A stretch of DNA of 64,000 nucleotides from Flavobacterium faecale (GTDB taxonomy: Bacteria; Bacteroidota; Bacteroidia; Flavobacteriales; Flavobacteriaceae): the NCBI RefSeq assembly GCF_003076455.1, contig NZ_CP020918.1, positions 4,500,001 to 4,564,000 on the forward strand, read 5' to 3'. The notes under the pieces were generated by a model. It made no database searches, was not told where the DNA came from, and saw only the letters and a list, made by a program, of their open reading frames with translations. Position 1 is the stretch's first letter. Each line of letters opens with the position of its first letter. The position numbers were made by a program, and so were the translations under genes. Positions 31,727-56,053 of the stretch are shown here, piece after piece.

Positions 31727-31775
31727 TTTTAAATTAATTTTTTTTTTCAACAAAATTTGAACGGTATGCTATTTG

Positions 31776-31893
31776 CGGGAGGGATTGAAGCGGCATCCTT
31801 TTTTGTCTCTTTTTTTGAGACAAAAAAGATATAGCTGAAAGCCCGACCCGAAGTTGCGAGGAAGAATAACGAAGCAAACTGAGGGGCACGCCC
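31776..31893 (+). ncRNA. Structured intergenic element, possible Flavo-1-like RNA
   Basis: CGGGAGGGATTGAAGCGGC opens a nested fold: CGGG..GGG pairs with CCC..CCCG at 31842-31850, and inside is a perfect 11-bp stem TTTTTTGTCTC / GAGACAAAAAA with a T6 loop. GATATAGCTGAAAGCCCGAC and a distal GGGCACGCCC palindrome follow. The same words recur in intergenic DNA of many Flavobacteria; whether this is the Rfam Flavo-1 motif or another repeated element needs a covariance-model search. The active strand is uncertain. Confidence 0.5.
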
Positions 31894-53844: not shown

Positions 53845-54552
53845 ATGAAAAAAGCCCTCTTAATTTTACTTGTAATTTCTTTCTCTAGCTGTGCCGAATT
53901 GCAACAAATCGCCAATCAACTACCCGTAAATCAAGGTACAACCGGCTTAGACATTGCAGGAGGATTAAAAGAAGCACTCAATAACGGAATCACGAAGCAA
54001 GTAACTAAATTGACTGCAGCTGATGGTTTCTATAAAAATGAAGCCGTAAAGATTTTGCTACCGGCAGAATTACAAAAAGTAGACTCTGGTTTGCGTAAAA
54101 TTGGCCTTAGTTCACTTGCAGACGAAGGATTAAAAGCAATAAATCGTGCTGCCGAAGATGCAGTTAAAGAAGCTACTCCTATATTTATAAGCGCAGTTAA
54201 AAACATGTCTTTCAATGACGCTACTGGCATTTTGATGGGAAGCAACAACTCTGCTACAGCTTATTTAGAAAACACTACAACAACTGCTTTGTATGCAAAA
54301 TTCAATCCTGTGGTAAAAAACTCTTTTAGCAAAGTAGGAGCTGATAAAGTTTGGAGCAATATCATTACCAAATACAACAGCATCCCTTTGGTAACCAAAG
54401 TAAATCCTGATTTGAATGATTACGTAACCAATCAAGCGATGAGCGGTGTATTCAAAATGATTGCTGTAGAAGAAAAAGACATTAGAACAAACCTTAATGC
54501 AAGAACCTCAACTCTATTAAAAAGTGTTTTTGCCATTCAAGATAAAAAATAA
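53845..54552 (+). CDS. DUF4197 family lipoprotein
   Basis: The 235-residue protein has lipobox FSSC with Cys16. GLDIAGGLKEALNNGITKQV, ADGFYKNEAVKILLPAELQK, SLADEGLKAINRAAEDAVKE and MSFNDATGILMGSNNSATAY make a largely helical, conserved DUF4197 domain. The family is exported and of unknown role. A possible -7 TATTTTTG lies at 53797-53804. purU starts 22 bases downstream, so the two may share a transcript although no functional link is known. Confidence 0.85.
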   Translation: MKKALLILLVISFSSCAELQQIANQLPVNQGTTGLDIAGGLKEALNNGITKQVTKLTAADGFYKNEAVKILLPAELQKVDSGLRKIGLSSLADEGLKAINRAAEDAVKEATPIFISAVKNMSFNDATGILMGSNNSATAYLENTTTTALYAKFNPVVKNSFSKVGADKVWSNIITKYNSIPLVTKVNPDLNDYVTNQAMSGVFKMIAVEEKDIRTNLNARTSTLLKSVFAIQDKK

Positions 54553-55437: not shown

Positions 55438-55506
55438 ATTAACGAATATCAAACAAAGTAATAACTAAATATTAACAAGCCAAAAAGCTTTTCTGTTGCA
55501 CCTTTG
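55438..55506 (+). promoter_or_regulatory. Promoter of candidate sRNA copy 1
   Basis: Elements: ATTAACG box (55438-55444), -33-type TTAACA (55472-55477), a 21-base spacer and -7 CACCTTTG (55499-55506). Order and spacing are identical to copy 2. Confidence 0.65.
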
Positions 55507-55511
55507 TAACA

Positions 55512-55589
55512 TAATAAATTGGTTATTTATTATTTGGTTTTGGTTAGTTAAAAGATGGCCGCTATTCAATGAATAGCGGCTTTTTTTTT
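55512..55589 (+). ncRNA. Candidate small RNA, copy 1 of a tandem pair
   Basis: The predicted transcript of about 78 nt begins around 55512. A 5' hairpin TAATAAAT-TGGTT-ATTTATTA is followed by an unpaired G/U-rich stretch (TTTGGTTTTGGTTAG) and a perfect terminator GCCGCTATTC-AAT-GAATAGCGGC (55558-55580) plus nine T (55581-55589). Copy 2, 463 bases downstream, has 46 of 51 identical bases between -7 element and terminator. No ORF fits inside. Function unknown; the transcript start is inferred from the -7 element. Confidence 0.75.
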
Positions 55590-55900
55590 GGATTTTTTTT
55601 TAAAAGAAAAGCTATACGCAAAACTTTCTATTTTATTGCATTGGCTCACTATGCAACGCACCCTTGTATGCACGCAACTCAACAAAATTATATTGATTTG
55701 GACCTTGTAGCTTTTTTGCTCGAAGTAGGCACTCCTACATTATTTTATTCGAAGAAAATAGAAATAGCAATAACAATTGTGATTTACCAACAGACGATAT
55801 CGCCTCTAAACATAAAAATGAGTACTTTCTAAAATCTCAGTGATTAAAAATCAAACCCTTAAAACATAATCAACTTATTCGCCATCAAAACACACTAATT
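55590..55900. other. Spacer between the two candidate sRNAs
   Basis: No convincing gene. A plus-strand frame (55569-55832, 87 codons) starts inside the terminator of sRNA 1; its stretch LLEVGTPTLFY faintly recalls the N-terminus of PLP decarboxylases or racemases and could be a decayed fragment, but codon quality is poor and nothing else of such a gene is present. Confidence 0.4.
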
Positions 55901-55969
55901 ATTAACGTTAAAACAACACAATACTAACTAATTTTTAACAGCATTACACGTCTTATTGATGCATCTTTG
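55901..55969 (+). promoter_or_regulatory. Promoter of candidate sRNA copy 2
   Basis: ATTAACG (55901-55907), TTAACA (55935-55940), a 21-base spacer and -7 CATCTTTG (55962-55969). The spacer sequence differs from copy 1 while the boxes are kept. Confidence 0.65.
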
Positions 55970-55974
55970 TAGTG

Positions 55975-56053
55975 TAATAAACTGGTTATTTATTATTTGG
56001 TTTTGGTTAGTTAAAAGATTGCCGCTGTTCTGTGAATGGCGGCATTTTTTTTT
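55975..56053 (+). ncRNA. Candidate small RNA, copy 2 of a tandem pair
   Basis: The predicted transcript has the same architecture as copy 1: TAATAAA / TTTATTA 5' hairpin, G/U-rich middle, and terminator GCCGCTGTTC-TGT-GAATGGCGGC (56021-56043), then A and nine T. Substitutions in the stem arms keep pairing through U-G and G-U pairs. The T-tract overlaps the stop codon of the convergent alpha/beta hydrolase gene, so this terminator may also act for that gene. Confidence 0.75.

Follow-up and report, generated by a model that had tools for sequence, protein, structure and literature searches.

The window analysed here, a stretch of 64,000 nucleotides from Flavobacterium faecale, very probably contains two functional small RNA (sRNA) genes. 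These would be paralogues, each with its own promoter and terminator, situated between purU and a convergent alpha/beta-hydrolase gene. The full explanation that we favour, and consider probable, is that the two genes are activated by a regulator and that their RNAs base-pair with A/C-rich translation starts. Flavobacteria form a large group whose members live in soil and water or in association with fish, and, to our knowledge, few of their sRNAs have been characterised. A common family with an activator-type box and repeated doubling would provide a direct handle on signal-controlled RNA regulation in the phylum. The features of the two units are as follows, with positions counted in the window.

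55438..55477 (+): unit 1, activator-type box of four AAC repeats (AAC at 55441, 55452, 55463 and 55474), ending in TTAACA
55499..55506 (+): unit 1, -7 element CACCTTTG
55511..55589 (+): unit 1, predicted sRNA of about 78 nt, its start inferred from the -7 element
55512..55532 (+): unit 1, 5' hairpin, with loop TTGGTTA at 55519-55525
55533..55550 (+): unit 1, G/U-rich linker TTTGGTTTTGGTTAGTTA, the presumed seed
55558..55589 (+): unit 1, Rho-independent terminator
55901..55940 (+): unit 2, activator-type box, four repeats as in unit 1
55962..55969 (+): unit 2, -7 element CATCTTTG
55974..56052 (+): unit 2, predicted sRNA of about 78 nt
55975..55995 (+): unit 2, 5' hairpin, with loop CTGGTTA at 55982-55988; absent from the single-sequence fold
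55996..56013 (+): unit 2, G/U-rich linker, identical to that of unit 1
56021..56052 (+): unit 2, Rho-independent terminator

The likeness of the two units is far beyond chance. Unit 1 (55438-55589) and unit 2 (55901-56052), both on the plus strand and 463 bases apart from start to start, are 78% identical across 152 nt with no gaps. With unit 2 as query, the 4.62-Mb genome yielded unit 2 itself and unit 1 (E 7e-29), and no further match at E 0.001. The layout described in the first-pass annotation is present in both: ATTAACG at 55438 and 55901, 27 bases to TTAACA, a 21-base spacer and then CAYCTTTG. As had also been described, the 51-base bodies (55507-55557 and 55970-56020) share 46 identities, the promoter spacers differ (9 of 21 positions identical), and the changes in the terminator arms preserve pairing, an A-U pair becoming G-U and a U-A pair becoming U-G. 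The retention of body, box, spacing and -7 element, together with the compensating terminator changes, supports the original proposal of two functional sRNAs. Each unit has what is expected of an sRNA gene, namely its own promoter, a conserved non-coding body and a Rho-independent terminator. The alignments support the view that the units are conserved transcription units, whose predicted non-coding RNA has a stem-loop in its 5' part, followed by an invariant G/U-rich linker and then a terminator.

The promoter is more elaborate than it had seemed. The two boxes noted previously are present as described, but they are really the outer members of a series of four AAC repeats, 11 bp apart. Promoters were compared in 31 units, which were chosen by their body and not by their promoter. 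The four AAC stand at exact 11-bp steps, three of them being invariant in all 31 units and the second present in 28-30 of the 31, depending on the column. In every unit the repeats end 25 bp before the TTTG of the -7 element, which itself lies 31 bp past the start of TTAACA. The -7 element is an ordinary one: among hexamers upstream of 1282 gene starts sampled from the same genome, none is more enriched than TCTTTG and CTTTGC. In this phylum the usual place of the -33 element is 18-22 nt before the -7 element. None of the 31 units has a TTG there, and the last AAC repeat overlaps this place.

Activators of the OmpR/PhoB family replace the -35 box, using repeats that overlap its position. The box, together with the missing -33 TTG, suggests activation by a response regulator of the OmpR/PhoB type, and we think it reasonably likely that a response regulator of some kind activates these promoters. 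The activator envisaged here is a response regulator that dimerises, with the OmpR/PhoB kind the most likely; it would bind the four half-sites on one face of the DNA, and once bound would recruit RNA polymerase in place of the -33 element. With no mismatches allowed, the full box pattern is found in the 4.62 Mb only at the two units, and therefore the regulator may serve them almost alone, or else its other sites are looser. A weight matrix of the box, run over 1.66 Mb, scored 49.8 and 39.9 at the units (which were also used to train it) and at most 16.5 elsewhere, compared to 16.4 for a reversed-matrix control.

Two further sites resemble parts of the box. The first (L224, minus strand) precedes a 243-aa ORF by 177 bp; here the half box AATAACATAATTTTAACA is followed by TTTTTTG at approximately the sRNA spacing; scored for the proximal half box plus TTTG, this site reaches 23.5, against 23.1 for unit 1 and 20.8 for unit 2. 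The second (L264, minus strand) has TTAAC, ATAAC and TTACC at 11-bp steps and precedes by 82 bp an ORF of 1017 aa, which we read as SusC-like.

The Pho boxes bound by PhoB and by Bacillus PhoP are 11-bp direct repeats ending at the -35 region, those of Bacillus having TTAACA-like half-sites. The present box is alike in its direct repeats, its 11-bp steps and where it ends, and in half-site it is similar to the boxes of Bacillus; at both units there are direct repeats with an 11-bp period at the -35 position. Beyond the box, nothing supports membership of a Pho regulon: this genome has no PhoU, and, with no mismatches allowed, the full box is found at no other place in it. One PstS-like protein in the genome scored above the cut-off.

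A regulator of the LytTR kind, whose half-sites are about 22 bp apart, could be proposed instead, given that repeats 1 and 3, and likewise 2 and 4, stand 22 bp apart, and that CTTAAC resembles the complement of LytTR half-sites. We regard this as unlikely, since all four repeats are kept at 11-bp steps, an arrangement that is fitted more simply by tandem winged-helix binding of the OmpR/PhoB kind.

The RNA downstream of this putative OmpR/PhoB-type promoter was analysed in 45 aligned copies. The body, TAATRAAYTGGTTATTTATTATTT(T)GGTTTTGGTTAGTTA, of around 38 nt, is almost invariant among them, though the copies were picked by their near-match to the core, and its conservation is therefore in part a selection effect. 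Covariation was assessed using a named structure on a 19-row subset, in place of RNAalifold on the first MAFFT alignment, which had misaligned the left arm of the terminator and so lost it. In the 19 rows, 5 of the 11 pairs of the terminator stem are changed on both sides, and over both helices 99.1% of cells are paired, as against 31-62% when slid.

The 5' AU hairpin proposed in the first-pass annotation finds support in covariation with relatives from other genera, but not by the fold of the 5' part of unit 2 on its own. Compared with shuffled sequences, unit 1 folds with z -5.1 for the whole RNA and -2.3 for the 5' part, and forms the 5' hairpin. Unit 2 gives z -3.2 for the whole RNA; its 40-nt 5' part folds no better than shuffles (z 0.3), and the hairpin is not part of its minimum free energy fold. 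The stem, TAATAAA/TTTATTA, never varies within the genus, and the 19 genus rows are therefore neutral on it. Six relatives in other genera (L129, L130, L140, L145, L147 and L152) keep the loop ACTGGT(T/A)ATT and TTTTGGTTAGTT, while the letters of the stem differ. In an alignment of 13 rows all 8 pairs of the stem hold in every row and 4 of the 8 are changed on both sides, with 100% of cells paired (30-57% when slid). For the number of cells paired, the number of cells changed on both sides and the covariation score, none of 500 shuffles reached the observed value; two further measures were not above shuffles, namely how many pairs had changed on both sides (reached by 458 of the 500) and how many pair types occurred (238 of the 500), and all of these covariation figures presuppose that the Flavobacterium and other-genus classes are homologous.

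The proposed action of the RNA is to pair with A/C-rich translation starts and so block translation, the contacts being made by UGGUUA of the loop and UUUGGUUUUGGUUAGUUA of the linker. For an RNA of this type, such pairing at the start of translation is the likeliest general mode, and we judge it likely that the sRNAs regulate by base-pairing. The first candidate targets would be mRNAs for sugar uptake and glycan degradation, but pairing with sugar and glycan genes in particular is proposed here only tentatively. A search for complementarity against gene starts, which had been suggested in the first-pass annotation, gave, among its best-matching starts, those of genes for sugar transporters and glycoside hydrolases, but the statistical tests were weak and for the most part negative.

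Genome-wide, with up to 3 mismatches, there are 41 antisense matches to the linker (39, plus the two in the sRNAs themselves), compared to 75 for the reversed control. Of the 39 non-self places, six fall between -20 and +60 relative to a likely start. They belong to an MFS transporter gene (read as ExuT-like), RhaT, a GH16 gene present in two copies, a GH2 gene and FtsZ. Four of the five distinct genes look carbohydrate-related, an observation made post hoc and without a base rate. The labels ExuT-like and FtsZ are our own reading, and a Pfam scan covered the start-matching genes other than FtsZ. A seventh candidate start (L162), in a short ORF antisense to a 533-aa ORF, was set aside. The two GH16-domain gene copies (L222, 12844, plus strand, and L298, 15553, minus strand) have identical upstream sequence within one genome.

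At the 1282 sampled starts, duplex energies are no better than those of 60 dinucleotide shuffles of the seed. Counting matches by Hamming distance gave 2 starts with up to 3 mismatches (shuffle mean 0.94; 57 of 200 shuffles as high), 14 with up to 4 (8.25; 15 of 200), 66 with up to 5 (50.3; 4 of 200) and 201 with up to 6 (213.7; 152 of 200). TAACCA is not enriched upstream of the same starts. The strongest start is that of the ExuT-like gene, at -22.2 kcal/mol, with z -4.2 in the genome in which it was picked; the best of the 60 shuffled seeds reaches -23.3 kcal/mol over the sampled starts, and so beats it. Of 57 genomes with matches, 29 orthologues of this gene were retrieved besides our own; a single one reaches z -3.1, and the remaining 28 range from -1.8 to +2.0, a result that is not convincing. 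For rhaT, 150 genomes yielded 2 homologues besides the gene itself.

The same RNA might instead act as a sponge, binding a protein of the RRM type or another kind through its repeated GGUU motifs, with no pairing to mRNA. The near invariance of the whole body, the presence of UGGUUA in both loop and linker, and the fact that no target signal stands out globally would all suit such a role. However, pairing sRNAs with many targets are also conserved, and a crude motif scan of 1.66 Mb gave no short RRM-like or Hfq-like protein (which is not evidence of absence). We consider the sponge rather unlikely, and base-pairing remains the preferred mode.

The position of the units invites a different question. 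The gene read as purU, which by Pfam has a formyl transferase domain, ends 9 bases 5' of unit 1, and the last base of the unit 2 terminator is the end of the convergent hydrolase gene. From this it might be supposed that only the terminators are functional, serving the ends of these two genes, and that the remainder is a decayed repeat. This is very improbable. In relatives it is the body and promoter that are kept, while the terminator stems drift with compensating changes, which is the reverse of a pattern in which terminators alone are retained; and the family is also found where the neighbouring genes differ. Least probable of all is a situation like that of type I toxin systems, in which the units would encode short membrane peptides. 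Hydrophobic frames such as NWLFIIWFWLV can be read in the body, but 14 of the 45 aligned rows carry one extra T in mid-body with the remainder unchanged, an insertion that would shift any reading frame and so argues against a peptide. In addition, from the -7 element to the end of the linker neither window unit contains an ATG.

The distribution of the sRNA genes can be followed through the genus. An exact 29-base core is contained in 24 stretches; the 23 contigs on which these lie are all titled Flavobacterium. purU is a neighbour in 20 of the 24 and the hydrolase in 21, with at least one of them present in all 24. Synteny is not universal: when some 1.5 kb to either side was inspected at L057-L085, none of ten window genes was seen at 18 of these 29 loci. 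In four loci (L036, L041, L044 and L051) a second DUF4197-like gene, comparable to 53845-54549 of the window, lies between purU and the sRNA. By DNA search of a genus sample, 211 of 398 Flavobacterium genomes have a match at E 1e-5. A search of other Flavobacteria with a covariance model, one of the checks originally proposed, gave matches at E 1e-3 in 287 of the 396 genomes of the genus that were sampled (all of at least 95% completeness); the model was built from 19 rows including genus rows, and hence the genus matches are not independent of it and the E-values are rough. In a family-wide search with a threshold of E 0.01, 39 of 299 genomes gave a match, these being the genome studied here, one other of the genus and 37 from other genera (best E 1.6e-6). 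At 28 loci of other genera, no Flavobacterium promoter box could be seen by eye. As regards mobile elements, the exact core, in its three-T and four-T variants, is absent from viral contigs, and no plasmid match was found.

Comparison with known RNAs agrees with the earlier impression that this is no known Rfam family, as none of Rfam 15 reaches its threshold at either unit. The best permissive match by E-value is L20_leader (29.3 bits against a threshold of 58.7, E 0.0011), but it has six mispaired positions and spans the promoter. Other permissive matches, including rli40, RsaOG and rseX, are all far below their thresholds. These matches are taken as reflecting a shared U-rich tail and hairpin. 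The only Rfam match in the window at the gathering threshold is a Flavo-1 RNA (RF01705) at 31770-31852 (+), with 63.6 bits. Flavo-1 gives no match at the units at either threshold, and differs from them in structure and sequence. In overall organisation there is a likeness to OmrA and OmrB, sibling sRNAs encoded in tandem under an OmpR-type regulator, which similarly have a shared seed and separate promoters.

Under the Rfam model of FopS (RF04319), unit 2 reaches 19.1 of the 56 bits required. FopS of Bacteroides represses SusC-type glycan transporters by pairing at their translation starts (PMC11697453). Like the present RNAs, the FopS RNAs are short (65-70 nt), multicopy Bacteroidota sRNAs with a conserved seed; as described there, they differ in numbering 14, in having promoters of the canonical kind and in placing the seed at the 5' end (PMC11697453), whereas the window sRNAs form a tandem pair at one locus. 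By analogy, the window RNA could act like FopS, despite not being FopS by its Rfam score.

Within the genus, Rfp18 of Flavobacterium psychrophilum is likewise a conserved sRNA, and is needed for normal levels of two protease mRNAs (PMC9723704). It is described as pairing via its third stem-loop and therefore has at least three (PMC9723704), while two are predicted for the window RNA, with no third in which pairing could occur; by that description, Rfp18 is set apart. The window RNA could nevertheless be one of Rfp1-89 of F. psychrophilum, in which case it has been detected before. No description of it was recognised among the papers listed in searches of the open-access literature, the supplement of PMC9723704 excepted.

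In other genera, the six loci named above contain an sRNA-like class with a CTGGTTA-type loop, the TTTTGGTTAGTT linker and an additional TTGGTTTGG-like stretch. Its neighbours in two of them (L130 and L140) are a gene read as murB and an ECF sigma/RskA-type anti-sigma gene pair (Pfam-scanned in L130 only). A pattern search of 6 genomes for this class gave no match. Nine other loci (L133, L135, L136, L139, L142, L148, L151, L153 and L154) have GGTTAGTTA, often as GGTTGGTTAGTTA, shortly before a terminator. The sigma-54 promoter consensus has the form TTTGGCACG...TTG, and a similar sequence is located upstream in L136 and L154, with a near match in L142.

It is possible, although doubtful, that all of these belong to a wider Flavobacteriaceae sRNA group, with a common core (UGGUUA in loop and linker), different control in each lineage, and repeated tandem doubling. 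The inputs would be the box of 11-bp repeats in Flavobacterium, the ECF sigma/anti-sigma neighbourhood in other genera, and possibly sigma-54 in a third set. If true, the group would represent one common RNA output wired to different inputs.

Finally, two copies, 184-492 bp apart, are present at 22 of the 84 loci examined, several of these loci being one place fetched twice. F. fluvii DSM 19978 is among the genomes with two copies. A tree of the copies was calculated, for which the bootstrap had not settled. For the window genome, F. algicola and Flavobacterium sp. 7A, it places the copies 1 in one group (96/83) and the copies 2, with a third copy from sp. 7A, in another (98/94); that doubling therefore predates the split of the three species, and both copies have persisted since. 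Nine copies 2 of a separate clade group alone (100/93), and the pairs in L038, L039, L066 and L111 sit elsewhere. Tandem doubling has thus occurred at least twice, and probably more often. Having two copies would give a dose effect or slightly different timing. Three sRNA copies are found on one contig in Flavobacterium sp. 7A (L050 and L052) and in one other genome (G743).
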